The notes beneath the pieces are model-generated. The model worked only from the letters and a program-made list of their open reading frames with translations, did not search any database and was not told the DNA's origin. Below, piece by piece: positions 6,600-19,498 of a stretch of DNA of 64,000 nt (position 1 is the first letter of the stretch; each line of letters starts with the position of its first letter). Origin of the DNA: Pseudomonadota bacterium. Lineage in GTDB: Bacteria > Desulfobacterota > Desulfovibrionia > Desulfovibrionales > Desulfomicrobiaceae. The translations under genes and the position numbers were made by a program. The stretch spans positions 124,001-188,000 of the forward strand of contig JAHIQM010000011.1 of the NCBI GenBank assembly GCA_018902545.1. Reading direction: 5' to 3'.

Positions 6600-6808
6600 G
6601 TGGATCCCCGCCTTCGCGAGGATGACACCGTGGCGGTGTGGGCGACTGCCGCCAGAAGAGAACACCGATCTTTCGCACGGGTTGAGGTGTCATTCCCGCG
6701 AAGGCGGGAATCCATGCCTTCACCGTGGCGGTTTGGGCGGCTACCGCCAGAAGAAAAACACCGGTCTGCCGCACGGGTTGAGGTGTCATTCCCGCGAAGG
6801 CGGGCAAC
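6600..6808. repeat. Tandem palindromic REP-like array between yejA and yejB
   Basis: Two direct units with a 95-base period start at GTGGCGGT (6630 and 6725). Each contains a short GC hairpin (tggcggt...accgcca type) and then GGGTTGAGGTGTCATTCCCG CGAAGGCGGG, split here for readability. An inverted half-unit (GGATCCCCGCCTTCGCGAGG, 6602-6621) precedes them. The same ATTCCCGCGAAGGCGGGAAT core occurs at 51322-51345 and diverged at 19661-19670. No coding function is apparent. In the transcript these would fold into stable stem-loops. Confidence 0.8.
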
Positions 6809-11980: not shown

Positions 11981-12634
11981 ATGGCTCACAAGGAATTCGG
12001 TGTCGTGGGTTTGGGCAAGTTCGGCCTCAGCTTGGCCAGTTCCTTGATGGCTCACGGCCAGAAAGTGGTCGGGGTCGACAGCGATCCGGACAAGGTCAAG
12101 GCTGCGGCGGAGGTCCTGACCCAAGCGTATCAGGCCGAAGCGGTGGACAAGACCGCCCTGGAGCAGCTCGGATTCGGCGAACTGCAGGAGGTGATCGTCA
12201 GCACCGGACGTCACATGGAGGCAAGCATTCTCATCACACTTTTTCTGAAGGAACTGGGCTGTAAAAACGTGACGGTCAAGGCCTTAAGCCGTGATCACGA
12301 GAAGGTGCTGACCAAGGTCGGGGCCGACGCGGTCATCTTCCCGGAACGCTACGCCGCCGAGCAACTGGCTGCCAAGCTGGCCGTGCCGGGTCTCATCGAC
12401 TACCTGCCGCTCGGCACCAACATCATCCTCAAAGAGCTCACCGTTGAGAGCTGGGCGGGGAAGACCCTGCGTGATCTGGACCTGACCAATAACTTCGACA
12501 TCCAGGTGGTGGCCGTGAAGCGCCTTGAGGAGAAGCAGTTCGTGTTCGTGCCCAAGGCCGATAAGCCCTTGCAAAAAGGGGATGTCCTGGCAGTTATCGG
12601 CAGTGGGGAGAAACTTATGGAACTGGAGCCCTGA
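11981..12634 (+). CDS. ktrA: KtrA/TrkA-type RCK regulatory subunit
   Basis: A 217-residue cytosolic gating protein. RCK-N domain (residues 1-135) has a Rossmann nucleotide loop VGLGKFGLSLA near residue 9 and acidic VDSDPDKV at the end of strand 2, expected to bind NAD(H)/ATP. RCK-C domain (about 140-217) ends in AVIGSGEKLMELEP. It assembles as a ring on KtrB and opens it in response to nucleotides. Good Shine-Dalgarno AGGAGG at 11971-11976. Confidence 0.9.
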   Translation: MAHKEFGVVGLGKFGLSLASSLMAHGQKVVGVDSDPDKVKAAAEVLTQAYQAEAVDKTALEQLGFGELQEVIVSTGRHMEASILITLFLKELGCKNVTVKALSRDHEKVLTKVGADAVIFPERYAAEQLAAKLAVPGLIDYLPLGTNIILKELTVESWAGKTLRDLDLTNNFDIQVVAVKRLEEKQFVFVPKADKPLQKGDVLAVIGSGEKLMELEP

Positions 12635-12709
12635 TGGAGTGGGTACTGGTGGTGGAAGCGGTGGACAGGATGGATGCGATGAACAGAATGGACTTAATGG
12701 GCAGGTGAT

Positions 12710-13141
12710 ATGGCGCGTGTGCAGATTGAGTTACCGCAGTCCTGGCTTTTCCGGACGCGGCTAGGCGTGCGGGTGACCGATGTGAATTATGGCGGGCACC
12801 TGGGCAATGACCGGGTGCTGGGCCTTGCGCACGAGGCGCGGGTGCGCTGGCTGGCGTCCTGTGGTCTGTCAGAAAAGGACGTGGGCGGGGTGGGGCTCAT
12901 CATGGCTGATGCGGCTCTGGTTTTCCGGGGTGAGGCGTTTCTGGGCGATGAACTGGAAGTGGAGCTGGGCGCGGCCGAGATACGGCGGTCGGGTTTCGAT
13001 CTTGTCTACCGGCTGACCCGTCCTGCCGGCGCGGCCGAAATCGCCCTGGTCAAGACCGGCATGGTCTGCTTCGATTACGCCGCACGCAAGGTCGCCCGCC
13101 TGCCGCAGGGATTGCTTGGCTGTCTGGGAAGCGTGTCCTGA
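12710..13141 (+). CDS. Hotdog-fold acyl-CoA thioesterase
   Basis: A 143-residue protein of the 4-hydroxybenzoyl-CoA thioesterase (4HBT/hotdog) type. The catalytic-region motif VRVTDVNYGGHLGNDRVLGL is present near residues 20-40, followed by the long helix region HEARVRWLASCGLS and the beta-strand FRGEAFLGDELEVELG. It would hydrolyse an acyl-CoA; the substrate is unknown. Its stop overlaps the helicase start by one base, so the two are co-transcribed although no functional link is obvious. Confidence 0.75.
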   Translation: MARVQIELPQSWLFRTRLGVRVTDVNYGGHLGNDRVLGLAHEARVRWLASCGLSEKDVGGVGLIMADAALVFRGEAFLGDELEVELGAAEIRRSGFDLVYRLTRPAGAAEIALVKTGMVCFDYAARKVARLPQGLLGCLGSVS

Positions 13142-14508
13142 TGCAGTGCAAGATCGCTCACAAGCTTTTTTTGACCGACGTCCCGGAGCCCATCAAAGAC
13201 CAGATCATGGCCGAACTGACCCTTGAAAATCCCAAGTGGCTCGAAAACCTGAAGATGGGCCGCACCAATTACAAGATCTCCCGGCATCTGAAGTTCTATT
13301 CCACGCGTACGAACGGCGGTCTCATCCTGCCGCGCGGTTATGGCGGGCGGCTCGCAAGTATCTGCGCGGAGCATGGCGAGGCCGTGGAATACGAGGACGC
13401 GCGGCGCAGCCTGCCGGAAGTTGACTTCACCTTCTGCGGTGAACTGCGCCCCTATCAGGAGACGGCCTGTCAGGCCATGCTCCGGCGGCGCTTCGGGACG
13501 CTGTGCGCGCCCACTGGAGCCGGCAAGACCGTGTGCGGGCTCTCGCTTATCGCCCAGCGCCGCCAGCCTGCGCTGATCGTCGTCCACACCCGTGACCTGG
13601 CCATGCAGTGGGTGGAGCGCATCGAGCAATTTCTGAATATCCCCGCCCGCAAGGTGGGCATGATCGGCAGCGGCAAAAGCACGGTGGGCGAGGCCGTGAC
13701 CGTGGCCACCGTGCAGTCCGTGTACAGCCGGGCCAAGGACCTTAAAAAACGCGTCGGCCACATCATCGTCGACGAATGCCACCGTGCCCCCAGCCGGACC
13801 TTCACCGCCGCCGTGACCGCCTTTGACTGCGCCTATTCCCTTGGCCTCTCGGCCACACCGTACCGGCGCGACGGCCTGACTCCGCTCATATTCTGGCATC
13901 TGGGCGAAATGCACGCCCGCATCGACAGCGATGACCTGATGGAGAGCGGGGCCATCCTGCGCCCGGAAATCTGCATCCGCCCTACGGCGTTCGTGTGCGA
14001 GCGCGACCCCACGGAGGAGTACGGCCTCATCATCGCCGATCTGACCGAAGACATGGATCGCAACAGCCTGATCGTTGACGAAGTGGCGCGGGAAGTGGCG
14101 TCTGGGCGGGGAGTCGGGCTGGTGCTGTCCGACCGCAAGATACACTGTCGGATGCTTCAGGAGCTCTTGGAACAGCGCCACGGCATCTGCGGGGCGATCC
14201 TGACCGGCGACACGCCTCTGCCCGAACGCAAACGCCTAGTGGACCAGATCCAGTCGGGCCGGGTGGATGTGGTCTTCGCCACGGGCCAGCTCATCGGCGA
14301 GGGCTTCGACGCCAGCAACCTGACCTCCCTGTTTCTGGCCACTCCCATCAAATTCAGCGGCCGCCTGATCCAGTACCTGGGCCGCGTGCTGCGTCCTGCG
14401 CAGGGAAAAGCTCAACCAAAGGTTTATGATTTCGTGGACGAAAAGGTGGGCGTGCTCGACGCAGCTGCGAGGGCGCGGGCGGTGGTGTATGCGGATATTG
14501 GCGAGTAG
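13141..14508 (+). CDS. SF2 DEAD/DEAH helicase, XPB/UvsW-like
   Basis: A 455-residue superfamily 2 helicase. Visible motifs: Q-like FCGELRPYQETAC, motif I APTGAGKT (about 123), motif Ia VVHTRDLAMQW, motif II VDECHRAP (DECH), motif III LGLSATPYRRDG, motif V GEGFDASNL and motif VI QYLGRVLRPA. The short N-terminal region (1-95) before the helicase core resembles the damage-recognition-like domain of XPB/UvsW-type enzymes. Likely a DNA or RNA remodelling ATPase acting in repair or phage-related processes. Start overlaps the thioesterase stop. Confidence 0.85.
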   Translation: MQCKIAHKLFLTDVPEPIKDQIMAELTLENPKWLENLKMGRTNYKISRHLKFYSTRTNGGLILPRGYGGRLASICAEHGEAVEYEDARRSLPEVDFTFCGELRPYQETACQAMLRRRFGTLCAPTGAGKTVCGLSLIAQRRQPALIVVHTRDLAMQWVERIEQFLNIPARKVGMIGSGKSTVGEAVTVATVQSVYSRAKDLKKRVGHIIVDECHRAPSRTFTAAVTAFDCAYSLGLSATPYRRDGLTPLIFWHLGEMHARIDSDDLMESGAILRPEICIRPTAFVCERDPTEEYGLIIADLTEDMDRNSLIVDEVAREVASGRGVGLVLSDRKIHCRMLQELLEQRHGICGAILTGDTPLPERKRLVDQIQSGRVDVVFATGQLIGEGFDASNLTSLFLATPIKFSGRLIQYLGRVLRPAQGKAQPKVYDFVDEKVGVLDAAARARAVVYADIGE

Positions 14509-14750
14509 GCGGGCTGCTGGATGAACTTGAGGTCGCAAATTGTGACTTCAAGTGGCGGGCATGGCGGCTGGAGGCACAACCCCGCGCCTTTACCAAACAT
14601 GCGAATCCGATTGTAAGCCCCAGGTTTCACTTCACAATCGAGTTTGTCCGCGCTATCTATCCGAACAATTTTATTCTCCCGACGGGGCAGGGCATTGAGC
14701 TGGTGGCTATGCAAACCGACGAGGCCCTGCGGGTCATCCTCAAACAGTAG
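14505..14750 (+). pseudogene. Orphan coding fragment, C-terminal remnant
   Basis: A continuous frame runs from the end of the helicase gene to a TAG at 14748-14750 and has protein-like content, for example RLEAQPRAFTKHANPIVSP followed by FHFTIEFVRAIYPNNFILPT and ending DEALRVILKQ. It has no ATG, GTG or TTG before its last 20 or so codons, so it cannot be a complete gene. It is probably the tail of a deleted gene, ending 11 bases before the DUF4062 gene. I do not recognise the family. Confidence 0.4.
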
Positions 14751-14761
14751 GGATTCAGGGC

Positions 14762-16270
14762 ATGAAGATCTTCATCAGCAGTGTTCAAAAGGAACTCGCA
14801 GCCGAGCGCAAGGCCTTGGCTGGATACCTTGCTGGCGATCCGCTGCTGCGCCGATTTTTCAACTACTTCCTGTTCGAAGATCAGCCTGCGGTCGATCAGC
14901 GAGCTGATCATTGCTACCTCGAAGAGGTGGATCGTTGCGACATCTATCTTGGCATTTTCGGCAATGAGTATGGTTCGGAAGATGCCGAGGGGTTGTCACC
15001 GACGCACCGCGAGTTCAACAGGGCCACCGAAAAAGGCAAGACCCGTCTGATCTATGTCAAGGGAGTCGATGACAGCGTTCGGCATTCGAAAATGAACGTT
15101 TTGATTTCCGATGCCGCCAGCAGTCTTATCCGACGTCGTGTGAATTCCGCCGAGGAGCTTATCTTCGCAGTGTACGCGAGTCTCGTCAGGATTCTCGAAG
15201 AGCGCGAGCTGATACGTTTCGGCCCGTTCGATGCCTCCTTCTGCCGCAACGCAACGCTTGATGACCTTGATGACGATAAGGTCACCCGTTTTCTTGTCCT
15301 TGCCAGGCGTGGTCGCAATTTTCCCTTACCGGCAGATACGCCGTCGCATGAGGTGCTGGAGCATCTCAACCTGCTCGACAAGGGTCGTCCGACCAATGCC
15401 GCCATCCTGTTGTTCGGCAGGCAGCCGCAACGTTTTCTGATCACCTCTGAGGTGAAATGCGCTCATTTCCACGGCTATGAAGTGGCAAAGCCCATTCCTT
15501 CGTATCAGGTATACAAGGGCAATGTTTTCGATCTCGTGGATCAGGCCAAGGATTTTGTGCTTTCCAAGATAGACCTCTGGGTGGGAACACGGGCGGAAAG
15601 TACACAGGCACCGACGAAATACGAAATTCCCCAGGAAGTTGTCGCCGAAGCCATCGTCAACGCCGTCGTGCACCGCGATTACACCAGCAATGGCAGCGTC
15701 CAGGTCATGCTCTTCAAGGACCGGCTCGAAGTCTGGAATCCCGGCATCCTGCCGCCGACTCTGACCCTTGAAAAACTGCGCGGGCCCCATGCCTCCGTCC
15801 CGCATAATCCGCTTCTGGCCGAACCCATGTACCTGACTAAGTACATCGAGCGCATGGGCACGGGTATCCGAGACATGATCCGGCGATGCAGGGCCGCCGG
15901 ACTTGCCGAGCCCGAAATCAGGATTGACGGTGGTTTTTTCGTGCTGACGATCCGGCGGAAAAAAGATGATTCAGGGGCCCAGTCAGGGGCCCAGTCAGGG
16001 GCCCAGTCAGGGGCCCAGTCAGGGGCCCAGTCAGAAGCGATTCTGAAAAATCTTGAAAAAGAGCCTTTGTCGGCTGCTGAACTCGCTGTGGCTTTGGATC
16101 TTCAATCAAAAACCGGTGCTTTCAAGCGAACTTTGCAGGAGCTGATCGATAGTAAAATGATCGAATATACCATCCCCGGAAAACCCACCAGTCGCCTCCA
16201 GAAATACCGTCTCACGGAAAAAGGACGCGAGTTGCTGGAGCAGTTGGACAAGGAGAGTGGCCAACCATGA
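14762..16270 (+). CDS. DUF4062 plus HATPase_c_4 (RecG-C-like) protein
   Basis: A 502-residue three-part protein. Residues 1-85 form a DUF4062 domain (start MKIFISSVQKELAAERKALA, then DIYLGIFGNEYG), a TIR-like alpha/beta fold often found at the N-terminus of signalling and defence ATPases. Residues about 285-400 match the GHKL-type HATPase_c_4 domain of COG2865 proteins (EAIVNAVVHRDY, LEVWNPGILPP, RMGTGIRDMIRRC). A GAQS x5 linker (404-423) leads to a winged helix (about 425-495). Members of this group lack known enzymatic assignment; transcriptional or anti-phage roles are plausible. It sits in a region rich in broken genes, and its stop overlaps another start codon (ATGA at 16267) whose gene is truncated. 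Confidence 0.75.
   Translation: MKIFISSVQKELAAERKALAGYLAGDPLLRRFFNYFLFEDQPAVDQRADHCYLEEVDRCDIYLGIFGNEYGSEDAEGLSPTHREFNRATEKGKTRLIYVKGVDDSVRHSKMNVLISDAASSLIRRRVNSAEELIFAVYASLVRILEERELIRFGPFDASFCRNATLDDLDDDKVTRFLVLARRGRNFPLPADTPSHEVLEHLNLLDKGRPTNAAILLFGRQPQRFLITSEVKCAHFHGYEVAKPIPSYQVYKGNVFDLVDQAKDFVLSKIDLWVGTRAESTQAPTKYEIPQEVVAEAIVNAVVHRDYTSNGSVQVMLFKDRLEVWNPGILPPTLTLEKLRGPHASVPHNPLLAEPMYLTKYIERMGTGIRDMIRRCRAAGLAEPEIRIDGGFFVLTIRRKKDDSGAQSGAQSGAQSGAQSGAQSEAILKNLEKEPLSAAELAVALDLQSKTGAFKRTLQELIDSKMIEYTIPGKPTSRLQKYRLTEKGRELLEQLDKESGQP
15971..16030 (+). repeat. 12-bp minisatellite, five tandem units
   Basis: Five perfect copies of TCAGGGGCCCAG encode (SGAQ)5, the linker between the ATPase-like domain and the C-terminal winged helix. 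The unit preserves frame, so copy number can vary. Low-complexity short repeats at this linker are a familiar trait of COG2865-type proteins. Confidence 0.95.
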
Positions 16271-16326
16271 GCGCTCTTGATTATACCGGACACGTCGAAG
16301 CCATGAGGCCTAGGTCACCAGGCTGA
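16267..16326 (+). pseudogene. Truncated start of a gene coupled to the DUF4062 gene
   Basis: An ATG overlaps the upstream stop in the arrangement ATGA, typical of a real operon partner, and reads MSALDYTGHVEAMRPRSPG before a TGA at 16324-16326. More stops follow in all frames. It looks like the 5' stub of a second gene in the DUF4062 operon whose body has been deleted. Family not identifiable from 19 residues. The rest of the gap up to 16485 shows no gene. Confidence 0.4.
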
Positions 16327-16485
16327 TCTAGCGTGTAACAACATGAAGCCCTGAAGAGACTCAAATCGCAAAACCTGTGTGATCACAAGACGGAAAGCCG
16401 TGCATGACAACGCGATGGAGAGCGGGTACATTCCTGAGCGCGAATCGTCCAATCTCTTTCATGAACCGCTCATCAGGACAGACGC

Positions 16486-17820
16486 ATGCATTCTCCGCGA
16501 AACGTTCCGCTCTTGACATACGTGCGCCAGATCCTGGTCGCCAGACTGGCGCTCATGGCTACCGTCATCGCCCTGACCCTGGCCACCCTGGCCTATCTGG
16601 CTGAAGAACGCATGCTGGAGGAGGCGGTGGTGGCCGAGGCGCAGGATGATCTTGCGGAACTGGTGGAACGCACCCGCGAGATTATCTCCCATGACGGTCT
16701 CTCTCCCCTGGACGCCTTCCGCCAGGCTGTCGGGGAAAAAATAGCCTCCAGTGTCAGGAAAAGCAGGCGCGGCAAGGTCGTCTATGCCAGGTTTTTCAAG
16801 CCGGGCATCTCCGGCGGGGAGGAGTATCTGGACCGGACCTTCGTGTTGCACGACGCCGTGCGCGCGCACGTCCATGCAGGCGAGAGCCCTGAACCCGAGA
16901 CCGGGACCTGGTCGGAAACGGTCTATATCGCAGACATCCTCTCCGTCCACGCCATCCTGCCCATCGATGAACTCGGACGGAGTGATACCGGATATGCCGA
17001 AATCGTCTTTGTCCCATCCCCGCCAGTGCTGGCCGCCATGGAGCGGAAAACACTCTACACCGTCGGAGCCGTCGCGTTTGTCGCACTGGCCACGGCGGCG
17101 CTCCTTTATCCAGTCATCCTGCGCCTGACCAACCGCCTCGTCGCCTTCTCCCGCAACCTGCAGGCGGCAAACTTCGAAACGCTGGCCCTGCTCGGCTGCG
17201 CCGTCGCCAAGAGGGACAGCAACACCGACGAGCACAACTACCGGGTGACCCTCTACGCCTTGCGTATAGCCGAGGCCATAGGCTTGGACGCGGCTGGAAT
17301 GCGCGCCCTCGCCAAGGGCGCGTTTCTGCACGATGTCGGCAAGATCGCCATCACGGATAGCATCCTGCTCAAGCCCGGCAAGCTCACGGAGAACGAATTC
17401 GAGATCATGAAGACCCACGTCAGGCACGGCCTCGACGTGGTCGCCCGCTCGACCTGGCTGCGCGACGCGAAGGACGTGGTCGGGTGCCACCACGAAAAAT
17501 TCGACGGAAAAGGTTATCCAAACGGAATAAGCGGAAAGGACATCCCCCTCACGGCGCGGATCTTCACCGTGGCCGATGTCTTCGACGCCCTGACCTCACG
17601 CAGGCCCTACAAAAACGCACTGAGCTGCGCAGAGGCCCTCGACATCCTCATGCGCGGGCGCGGGAAGCATTTCGATCCCGAGATCGTCAACACCTTCGTC
17701 GCCATGGCCGCGCCGCTGCACGAACGATACGCCCACAGGTCCGGCCGCGACCTGAGCGCGGAGTTGATCGACGTCGCCTGGAAATATTTTCATGACGGGG
17801 CTGATACACTGGTCTCTTAA
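16486..17820 (+). CDS. Membrane HD-GYP protein, probable c-di-GMP phosphodiesterase
   Basis: A 444-residue protein. A transmembrane helix (about 15-40), a periplasmic or extracytoplasmic sensor region (about 41-185) and a second helix (about 190-212) lead to a cytoplasmic HD-GYP domain (about 225-435). Metal and substrate motifs are seen as AFLHDVGKIAI (HD), then the HH pair and GYP loop in GCHHEKFDGKGYPNG, and FTVADVFDALTS. HD-GYP proteins hydrolyse c-di-GMP to pGpG or GMP. It is flanked on both sides by gene relics, so its position may reflect insertion or deletion events around it. Confidence 0.9.
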   Translation: MHSPRNVPLLTYVRQILVARLALMATVIALTLATLAYLAEERMLEEAVVAEAQDDLAELVERTREIISHDGLSPLDAFRQAVGEKIASSVRKSRRGKVVYARFFKPGISGGEEYLDRTFVLHDAVRAHVHAGESPEPETGTWSETVYIADILSVHAILPIDELGRSDTGYAEIVFVPSPPVLAAMERKTLYTVGAVAFVALATAALLYPVILRLTNRLVAFSRNLQAANFETLALLGCAVAKRDSNTDEHNYRVTLYALRIAEAIGLDAAGMRALAKGAFLHDVGKIAITDSILLKPGKLTENEFEIMKTHVRHGLDVVARSTWLRDAKDVVGCHHEKFDGKGYPNGISGKDIPLTARIFTVADVFDALTSRRPYKNALSCAEALDILMRGRGKHFDPEIVNTFVAMAAPLHERYAHRSGRDLSAELIDVAWKYFHDGADTLVS

Positions 17821-17861
17821 GTCAGGAACCCCGGCACCCTGCCGCCAACTCTGATCCTTGG
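17816..17861 (+). pseudogene. Relic of a second HATPase_c_4 gene
   Basis: Bases 17822-17860 are about 85-90 percent identical by eye to 15733-15771 inside the DUF4062 gene, the stretch encoding WNPGILPPTLTLE. Here it reads NPGTLPPTLIL behind an in-frame stop and is joined directly to the hipB fragment. It is a short scar of a lost paralogue. Confidence 0.55.
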
Positions 17862-18093
17862 TGTAGCGAAGCGGACGGTGGAGCGTATCGAGGCCGGGGC
17901 CACGACGCAAATGTCGACGTTGATCCGCCTTCTGCGTGCCTTGGAACTCCTGGATCGGCTGGAATCACTGGTGCCCGAGGCCGGGCCGCGTCCCATGGAT
18001 ATGGTCAGGCTCAAAGGCAAAACGCGGAAGCGGGCCAGCGGCAAGCGGAAGTCCACAAATGAAGAGCCGTGGCATTGGGGTGATGAAACATGA
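17860..18093 (+). pseudogene. HipB-like antitoxin, N-terminally truncated
   Basis: A 77-codon frame reading GVAKRTVERIEAGATTQMST, then LIRLLRALELLDRLESLVPE and ending EEPWHWGDET. This matches the second half of XRE-family HipB antitoxins: the recognition-helix end of the HTH and the conserved tail. The first half of the HTH is missing and replaced by the ATPase relic, so it cannot fold as a normal regulator. Its stop overlaps the hipA relic start as ATGA, the usual hipBA arrangement. Confidence 0.65.
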
Positions 18094-18188
18094 GCACGAC
18101 CGCAAAGGTCAATCTGTGGGGGCGCACGATCGGTGCAGTGGCCCTCGAAGACGGAGCCGCGACCGCGACGTTTGGGAGTGGAGCGTAG
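18090..18188 (+). pseudogene. HipA-like toxin, only the first 32 codons
   Basis: Starts MSTTAKVNLWGRTIGAVALE and stops after 32 codons. The opening matches the N-subdomain 1 start of HipA kinases (about 420 residues), which phosphorylate glutamyl-tRNA synthetase or related targets. The kinase core is absent, so the toxin is dead. Together with the hipB fragment this is a decayed toxin-antitoxin locus. Confidence 0.65.
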
Positions 18189-18253
18189 TTGCGTGCCCAG
18201 CGTGAGCCGATCATGGATGTGTGACAAATTAACAGGGTGTGAAGGAGGTCAAC

Positions 18254-19498
18254 ATGGATTTGAGCAAAATCATTGCGCGTGTGCAGGCGATCCTGACCAG
18301 GCCGAAACAGGAGTGGCCGGTGATTGCCGGCGAGCAATCCTCCCTCAAGGAGCTGTACCTCGGCTACATCATGGTCCTGGCAGCCATCGGACCGGTCGCC
18401 GGGTTCTTCAAAATGACGGTCATCGGGATGGATGTGCCGTTCATGGGGACATACCGGATGGGCTTCGGGGCCGGTTTGAGCAATATGGTCTTCAGCTATG
18501 CCATGGCCCTCGTGGGGGTCTATCTGGTCGCGCTTATCATCAATCATCTCGCACCCACCTTCGGCGGCCAGAAGGACGTCATGCAGGCCCTGAAAACGGT
18601 CGCATACTCCTACACGGCCGCCTGGATTGCCGGTTTGGGCCATATTGTACCATGGGTCGGCATGGCGATACTGATTCTGGGGTCCGTGTACAGCATCTAC
18701 CTCCTGTATTTGGGTCTGCCCGTCATGATGCATTGCCCCCGGGAAAAGGCCGCGAAGTACGCGGCGGCCTGCATCGTTGTCGCCCTTGTTGTCGGCATCG
18801 CCATCTCGCTGCTGGTCGGAGGGATTACCGGGGTTAGAGGCATGATGGGTGGCGGTACCATGCATCAGAGCGCACCGGGCGGTTTTGACAAGGACAGCCC
18901 CGGCGGCAATATGGAAGAATGGGCCAAAAAGATGGAGTCGGCCAGTGAGGAGTTGAAAAAGGCCCAGGAAAGCGGAGATGCACAGCAGCAAAGCGAGGCC
19001 ATGGACAAAATGATATCCACGGCCACGGGCAATGCGGGGCCGGTTGAATCCCTGGCACCCGAACGCATCAAGGCCTTTCTTCCGGAGAAACTGGCCGATC
19101 TGACCCGCTCCGAGTTGTCGGCCGAGCGCAGCGGCGCCATGGGTCTCCAGATTTCAACAGCACAAGGCACCTATGAGGATCAGAGCGGAAATGGTCTTCA
19201 GGTCGAGATCACGGACATGGCGGCGGTAAAAGGGATCATGGGTCTTGCGGGTTGGGTCGGCGTCGAACAGGAGCGCGTAACCGAGACGGGCTATGAAAAA
19301 ACCTACAAAGACGGCCAGGTGCTGGTGCATGAGCAGTGGGACAGACAAGCCGGGTCGGGTGAGTACAGTCTTATCGTGGGCGAGCGTTTCAACGTGACGG
19401 TCACCGGGAGCGCCCCGGATATCGGGATACTCAAAAATGCCGCCAGAGGGATCGACCTTGAAGGACTGGCTGCCTTGAAGGATGAGGGCGTGCAGTAG
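18254..19498 (+). CDS. Yip1-family membrane protein with soluble C-terminal domain
   Basis: About 414 residues. The N-terminal 200 residues hold a Yip1/DUF1282 domain: the entry segment MDLSKIIARVQAILTRPKQEW, the conserved acidic/proline region, and about five transmembrane helices (near 30-50, 70-100, 115-150, 160-190). After a glycine/methionine hinge (GVRGMMGGG) comes a hydrophilic half with a coiled-coil-like stretch (MEEWAKKMESASEELKKAQE) and a beta-rich end. ATG 18254 is chosen because AAGGAGG (18242-18248) is ideally placed; GTG 18239 is less likely. Function unknown; Yip1 proteins interact with membranes and other proteins. Confidence 0.7.
   Translation: MDLSKIIARVQAILTRPKQEWPVIAGEQSSLKELYLGYIMVLAAIGPVAGFFKMTVIGMDVPFMGTYRMGFGAGLSNMVFSYAMALVGVYLVALIINHLAPTFGGQKDVMQALKTVAYSYTAAWIAGLGHIVPWVGMAILILGSVYSIYLLYLGLPVMMHCPREKAAKYAAACIVVALVVGIAISLLVGGITGVRGMMGGGTMHQSAPGGFDKDSPGGNMEEWAKKMESASEELKKAQESGDAQQQSEAMDKMISTATGNAGPVESLAPERIKAFLPEKLADLTRSELSAERSGAMGLQISTAQGTYEDQSGNGLQVEITDMAAVKGIMGLAGWVGVEQERVTETGYEKTYKDGQVLVHEQWDRQAGSGEYSLIVGERFNVTVTGSAPDIGILKNAARGIDLEGLAALKDEGVQ

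Follow-up and report, generated by a model that had tools for sequence, protein, structure and literature searches.

The locus raises the question of what a DUF4062-ATPase gene with a perfect tandem repeat in its coding sequence does, and whether it is a solitary gene or the remainder of a larger system. The window, i.e., the whole 64,000-nucleotide stretch of DNA that was analysed, corresponds to positions 124001-188000 of its contig in a 3.7-Mb genome. Upstream of the focal gene (Table 1), it encodes an ABC transporter, Trk potassium uptake, a thioesterase and a ResIII/DEAD helicase, and downstream an HD domain protein and a Yip1 protein. None of the ten neighbouring proteins scanned was an Hsd protein, and an Rfam search of window positions 12000-19000 returned nothing.

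The architecture first read from the open reading frame, i.e., DUF4062 followed by HATPase_c_4 and a winged helix, was borne out by Pfam with all three domains above cut-off: DUF4062 (E 2.3e-21; 76.2 bits against a cut-off of 24.7), HATPase_c_4 (E 2.2e-22; 79.3 against 26) and Fic-like_C, the winged helix (E 3e-10; 40.3 against 27). The N-box Asn is N300, which lies just upstream of the Pfam span of HATPase_c_4 and is kept in 80 of 81 proteins, with one gap. AlbA_2 had no match in the window protein in a Pfam search at E up to 1. The sequence-only reading had called this an architecture of unknown function, and that part does not stand, as DUF4062 is reported, in the main text of a 2026 preprint, to be a TIR-like NADase killing infected cells (PMC13174449). 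The window protein aligns weakly with the KpSwz chain 10wc_A (E 0.0012, residues 1-161), and E84 falls on the active-site position of KpSwz, where all 81 aligned proteins have Glu. We infer that A84 of chain 10wc_A is the E97A mutation of that construct.

In a structure model built from a 76-row alignment (mean pLDDT 84.2, pTM 0.62) the domains are confident, and linker residues 403-420 have pLDDT below 50 and are predicted to be unfolded. The winged helix (pLDDT 83-93) starts directly after this predicted unfolded linker. A fold search with the whole model placed 3lmm on top (E 4.9e-15), followed with much weaker scores by nucleotide hydrolase, deoxyribosyltransferase and TIR folds; KpSwz structures were absent among the fold-search matches listed. 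Residues 155-380 also match PADLOC argonaute-associated models weakly (best E 5.3e-14, Aga_SIR2-PNTD1-PNTD2), which suggests domains shared with models of that library.

Table 1. Features of the focal locus in window coordinates.
Feature	Position	Strand	Basis
hsdM 3'-end remnant, ~20 codons, stop inside	14694..14756	+	local alignment to hsdM 3' ends
DUF4062-HATPase_c_4-winged helix gene	14762..16270	+	intact ORF, 502 aa
DUF4062 (TIR-like NADase) domain, residues 2-88	14765..15025	+	Pfam; similarity to PDB chain 10wc_A
E84 codon, putative catalytic Glu	15011..15013	+	aligned with A84 of 10wc_A
HATPase_c_4 (GHKL-type ATPase) domain, residues 312-397	15695..15952	+	Pfam; fold like 3lmm
12-bp x5.3 perfect tandem array (SGAQ)n, unit rotated to core GCCCAGTCAGGG	15971..16034	+	Tandem Repeats Finder
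Winged helix (Fic-like_C), residues 424-485, exchangeable module	16031..16216	+	Pfam, pLDDT, PadR/MarR-like fold
Conserved wing and following residues (466-488), 3' limit of swapped segment	16157..16225	+	alignment; L072/L107 breakpoint
Start of lost downstream partner, ATGA overlap	16266..16318	+	ORF start; L050 alignment

Remnants of other genes lie on both sides of the focal gene. The upstream remnant aligns to hsdM 3' ends over 63 bp in loci L105 and L050 and over 53 bp in L047/L048; the hsdM identity comes from HMMs and, in L033, from Pfam N6_Mtase/HsdM_N. Downstream, an ATG at 16267 overlaps the focal stop codon as ATGA and is followed by a stop after 19 codons. This segment of ~53 bp aligns with the start of the ORF downstream of the focal gene in L050, which alone among the nine loci compared scored above 44. 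Because the partner in L050 has decayed too and is followed by an hsdS-like fragment, the lost partner, on this reading of the frames, was probably hsdS. A 4-bp overlap with the next gene is found in 21 of 50 codirectional relatives. The proposal that a second gene had been deleted downstream is thus supported by the homology to the L050 ORF but was incomplete, as hsdM was lost upstream too.

The relatives show what an intact locus looks like. The protein has matches in 136 of 348 genomes of the class and, among the matches listed, seven are full length, the window included. Scanning named genome contigs yielded 261 relatives; we kept the best 80 of these 261. Using iterated HMMs on the same strand within 10 kb of the focal gene, we detected HsdM, HsdS or HsdR beside 39 of the best 80 (HsdM 33, HsdS 32, HsdR 30) and none beside the window gene; RhuM was found beside 8 and KilA-N beside 3. 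The focal gene lies between HsdM upstream and HsdS downstream in 15 of these 80 relatives, and between HsdS upstream and HsdR downstream in 14. Among the loci with more than 4 kb on both sides, hsd genes are present in 20 of 40, with the window counted among the 40. The other 41 of the best 80 have no hsd neighbour, partly because contigs end, many of them being short. Some hsd-less relatives adjoin other restriction-modification genes, i.e., an Eco57I methylase (L063), ResIII with an N6_N4 methylase (L113) or SNF2 helicases (L055, L093), and Legionella plasmid copies adjoin partition and integrase genes. The search for intact homologous loci that the sequence-only reading had recommended led to type I restriction-modification genes, and the 39 relatives contradict homologues that are always solitary and free of any defence association. 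Since the hsdM 3' end is kept upstream, the start of the partner is kept downstream and 39 of 80 relatives have type I genes, the window gene, as judged from sequence, is the stripped survivor of a type I restriction-modification operon.

A purely solitary gene was ruled out by the hsd remnants in the window and the hsd neighbours of relatives. Viral homologues were looked for by tblastn in viral_contigs and none was confirmed. In L123, L104, L053 and L065 the focal gene is split by stops or frameshifts, two of these being on Legionella records. On an E. coli IncC plasmid (L121), the gene immediately upstream of hsdS in a type I locus encodes an RNA-binding/AlbA_2-type protein that lacks the winged helix.

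The tandem array (100% match between units) lies between HATPase_c_4 and the winged helix. Of 81 homologous focal ORFs, 63 have an array of period 12, and in 63 of the 68 rows with an array it stops 62-84 residues short of the C-terminus. The focal ORFs, which make up 128,616 of 1,072,638 bases, contain 66 period-12 arrays against 21 in the other DNA of the same loci; at least one of these 21 belongs to a focal gene after all, as the second half of L104, which is frameshifted. This census and the position before the C-terminus rule out a chance repeat. At the peptide level, with the split genes L053 and L104 left out, exact self-matches of at least six residues occur at shift 4 in 56 of 79 linkers and at shifts 8 and 12 in 38 and 20; shifts 6 and 11 gave one each, and in the body such matches never occur. 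At least two exact tetrapeptide copies are present in 60 of the 81 genes and at least five in 13 (longest 8.0), and the 60 genes use 21 rotation-distinct tetrapeptides.

These arrays are homogenised, as neighbouring units differ at only 22 positions over 158 pairs and all units are identical at the DNA level in 43 of 60 arrays. They also change in length. Two Legionella contigs (L090/L092) are 100.0% identical over 1530 nt except for one 12-bp unit, and L087/L094 are 99.9% identical over 1560 nt except for two units. The repeat had been predicted to expand in frame, and this is what the copy numbers of otherwise near-identical genes show. Two Fic queries had no match in the E. coli collection searched for strain-level repeat counts, so the copy-number variation rests on near-identical genes of different genomes. 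Phase variation by frame was not seen, as 12-bp units keep the frame; 11-bp units, of which 12 genes have rows, could shift it, and that class showed no switch.

Such dynamics are what would be expected if the array were a flexible hinge and a neutral minisatellite in which slippage is tolerated and motifs are inherited by descent with the domain. The predicted disorder of the linker, the range of 2 to 8 copies across relatives and the one-unit and two-unit changes described above all fit this explanation, to which we assign a limited probability, well short of even. The restriction of the unit length to 12 or 11 bp speaks against it, as does a DNA core that exceeds its synonymous-codon null (see below) though the winged helices have diverged to less than 20% identity.

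In four pairs (L044/L045, L044/L046, L044/L047 and L072/L107) the bodies are 94-96% identical and the winged helices 16-24%. Winged-helix cores share less than 35% identity in 379 of the 577 pairs whose bodies are at least 75% identical, and in 24 of the 52 pairs whose bodies are at least 90% identical; these short-sequence identities, which also enter the flank correlation below, are gap-tolerant and may be inflated. The Elusimicrobia genes L072/L107 show where the exchange begins and ends: in 60-bp stretches of the body identity is ~82-98%, no relation is seen through the array and the helix core, and identity of ~90-98% resumes at the wing and continues through the start of the next gene. 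The repeat motif follows the winged helix. Eight motif classes in 64 classed rows (77 genes minus 13 without a classed array) change at least 32 times on the body tree, where seven is the least possible; shuffles gave a mean of 40.7 and a minimum of 36 in 200, which indicates some tree signal in the motif class. When the neighbour's body is less than 75% identical, the nearest winged helix predicts the motif class in 45 of 64 rows and the nearest body in 12 of 64 (shuffled mean 9.7, maximum 20 of 500), falling to 17 of 55 and 5 of 55 when it is less than 65% identical. The sets for motif prediction and flank correlation leave out L053, L104, L065 and L071, and one further analysis leaves out these four and L054. 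Classes were not defined by single-linkage clustering of the winged helices at 50%, which put 53 of 78 genes into one group.

The array-winged helix pair also occurs on other effectors. Among 30 cassette proteins outside the main set, all of which have Fic-like_C, we found HATPase_c_4 in 23, SLFN_AlbA_2 in 22, Fic in 7 and DUF4062 in 1. A Fic gene of the same genome as the window (L003) has VTPQ x3 before the same kind of winged helix, and a Vibrio cholerae plasmid carries a Fic gene between hsdS and hsdR that has no clear repeat. In the window gene, both Fic-like_C above cut-off and a tandem array directly before it are present. By these comparisons, the array and the winged helix together are an exchangeable cassette.

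The exchange itself could be the purpose of the array, which would then act mainly as a recombination seed, its shared core providing short homology for swaps and otherwise only spacing. The 5' breakpoints do lie at the array, and remnants of other motifs precede the present motif in L045, L047, L050, L095, L107 and L109, with one or a few copies left (e.g., L045, L107, L109). In addition, two of 20 regions picked for short-ORF hits, L157 and L158, contain immediately downstream an additional winged-helix ORF that is an orphan and belongs to another class, and the arrays are homogenised, with all units identical in 43 of 60. However, the 3' breakpoints are in the wing, outside any array, the shared core is only ~6 bp, and no orphan cassette was found beside the 81 DUF4062 genes except in the split focal genes L053, L065 and L104. 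We consider it unlikely that seeding recombination is the main role.

The composition of the units points to constraint on the DNA itself. Among the best arrays aligned (one per gene; 72 of 81 genes), AGTC is present in 54 of 72 and an 11-bp unit in 9 of 72. The eight genes of a helix class that lacks peptide period 4 all have 11-bp arrays, which rules out a period-4 peptide as the constrained unit. We compared 60 units with a synonymous-codon null in which the amino acids were kept and codons were drawn by each gene's own usage (2000 draws). AGTC was observed in 48 of 60 units (null mean 13.9, maximum 24), AGT in 58 of 60 (mean 25.4, maximum 36) and AGTCA in 40 (mean 5.2, maximum 14); with each tetrapeptide counted once, AGTC was observed in 14.7 of 21 against 4.0 expected. 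The same AGT(C) core is read in different frames (ES, QS, VT, PVT) and occurs in 11-bp arrays. In most arrays, the DNA core is thus conserved beyond the encoded peptide, as far as codon usage can tell. The excess of the core over the null argues against a tether being the whole role of the array. The repeat had been read as a linker only; the linker is indeed predicted to be unfolded, but the array DNA is conserved beyond the peptide and is swapped with the winged helix.

One explanation is that the in-gene direct repeats are a DNA element bound by the winged helix encoded just behind them, the wing reading the core AGT(C) and a variable helix reading the flanks. An array of n units would gather n effectors, which are stored there or repress the operon until a phage destroys or alters the DNA. 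In addition to the excess over the null and the one core across frames and 11-bp arrays, the unit flanks track winged-helix identity (rho 0.42, a value reached in 0 of 200 permutations); for body identity, which they do not track, the value is 0.05. In the Fic/AlbA_2 loci, AGT is kept in 38 of 50 non-redundant arrays, and 8 of the 12 arrays without it precede another helix-turn-helix type. A search of 395 genomes for three AGTCAC cores 12 bp apart gave 29 matches in 16 genomes, whereas the reversed pattern gave 5, and 15 of the 17 distinct (AGTCACN6)3-type sites lie just before this winged helix; one of the two misses (L184) is a broken array-bearing remnant. At 11-12 bp, each unit spans roughly one turn of the double helix, and the fold neighbours of the winged helix are DNA-binding regulators. 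Several observations oppose binding. Outside the array, the own unit has 55 hits in the locus, compared with 37.5 for units of other genes and 42 for shuffled units; extra operator copies near the gene were rejected for want of a clear excess. The flank correlation is only 0.17 between different frames, where at least one frame call (L112) looks wrong, and co-inheritance of repeat and domain would give part of the pattern even if nothing binds. The window winged helix has a net charge of 0 against a family mean of +4.8, and in viral contigs, among the matches listed, 1 of 81 sites (80 loci) precedes the winged helix and the pattern is mostly unrelated. On balance, we regard the DNA element as a tentative explanation with a probability well short of even.

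In its furthest form, this would be a self-addressed immune cassette, in which each winged helix carries its own DNA-unit array upstream in the gene, and we think this rather improbable. On this reading, the core AGT(C) would mark the domain family and the flanks the class, with the encoded peptide incidental, so that one DNA sequence would be read in different frames where the unit is 12 bp and in all three where it is 11 bp. Array and winged helix would be transferred together between NADase, Fic and AlbA_2 effectors, the array length tuning the number of effectors on the gene. If true, the coding sequence would also be an operator, exchanged along with its reader.

The account that we consider most likely, if only somewhat more probable than its negation, is a NADase effector of a restriction-modification operon with an exchangeable specificity module. 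The window gene would be the surviving effector of a type I operon, and its N-terminal DUF4062 a TIR-like NADase that stays inactive until the GHKL ATPase domain is switched. The C-terminal winged helix, on its unfolded repeat tether, may set the binding target. When the target, either a phage protein or DNA in an altered state, is met, the proteins would cluster, NAD+ would be destroyed and the infected cell would die. The array-winged helix unit would be replaced by recombination, with one breakpoint within or ahead of the array and the other in the conserved wing, and slippage would alter the array length. The points for this mechanism are the Glu on the KpSwz active-site position, the hsd context, the cassette swaps and the predicted unfolded linker, from which we infer NADase activity, ATP switching, sensing by the winged helix and abortive infection. 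The lack of hsd neighbours at 41 of 80 relatives and at the window gene, and the weakness of the sequence similarity to KpSwz, count against it.

As for the target, a fold search with the winged helix returned PadR/MarR-type regulators and the Fic protein 4rgl, a result that favours DNA. The winged helix could also be a simple autoregulator, in keeping with its transcription-regulator fold. By analogy, KpSwz offers a precedent for a protein trigger, as a phage portal protein is what activates it and the trigger is bound by the winged domain at its C-terminus, according to the preprint's main text (PMC13174449). The winged-helix profile had no match to the KpSwz chain up to E 5, and trigger binding can therefore not be transferred by homology.

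The effector that we favour has parts in common with several known systems. Many SLFN_AlbA_2-HATPase_c_4 proteins (e.g., DIP2311, PDB 3lmm) share with it the HATPase_c_4 core, the preceding region and the same array-winged helix cassette, but have AlbA_2 at the N-terminus where the window protein has DUF4062. Fic proteins with Fic-like_C (Dde_2494, PDB 4rgl; L003 of the same genome) have the same winged-helix family (E 1.4e-26) and carry 12-bp arrays of the same kind, with an exact repeat run below nine residues in 6 of 7 Fic rows; their effector is of AMPylase type, in contrast to DUF4062-HATPase. The target-recognition domains of HsdS are known for modular exchange of the recognition part, and the spacer change between EcoR124 and EcoR124-3 is reportedly a change in the number of a 4-residue repeat. 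The exchange of a recognition part is alike, but here one winged helix is swapped and the repeat motif changes along with it. CDI/Rhs polymorphic toxins leave displaced C-terminal modules as orphans downstream, as seen in two cases here (L157, L158); those toxins are secreted, unlike the window protein family. Swarozyc (KpSwz; PDB 10wc/11cq/11cv) resembles the window protein in DUF4062 and the position of the catalytic Glu, in having a C-terminal domain of winged/HTH type, though the two winged domains have no sequence match, and in the defence context, while HATPase_c_4 and a repeat tether, both present in the window protein, are not mentioned in the main text of PMC13174449. PrrC-type guards are described, in the part of the source consulted, as sitting inside type I restriction-modification operons (PMC12707154), as the relatives of the window gene do. 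Their effector differs from DUF4062-HATPase, and a likeness in trigger, i.e., restriction inhibition, would be by analogy only.

One exchangeable C-terminal module is common to NADase defence by DUF4062, to the accessory effectors found in type I restriction-modification operons and to Fic/AlbA_2 proteins, which links three subjects usually treated apart. Relatives from many phyla keep swapping this module and, if it is the sensor, the swaps are a natural series of matched receptors for finding triggers. The array is a rare coding minisatellite conserved as DNA across reading frames. None of six repeat peptides was found as a printed string in the paper library searched, and searches with domain names and for repeats in defence genes gave, in title-level listings, nothing on the array-winged helix cassette.

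Some AlbA_2/HATPase or Fic relatives (L110, L117, L073, L124/L125) have another helix-turn-helix type, which ends in KGGxW or a similar sequence and follows short tandem repeats that are mostly of 12 bp and mostly lack the AGTC core. Elsewhere in the window, a Fic-like ORF at 48673-49881 matches the Fic model of this genome's Fic protein (E 3e-9) and has no match to the winged-helix cassette. A 134-aa ORF (2579-2983, + strand) contains a 15-bp x9.4 repeat at 2742-2882 that encodes QALEK repeats, and positions 6626-6804 hold a 96-bp sequence in two near-copies with a 90% match.
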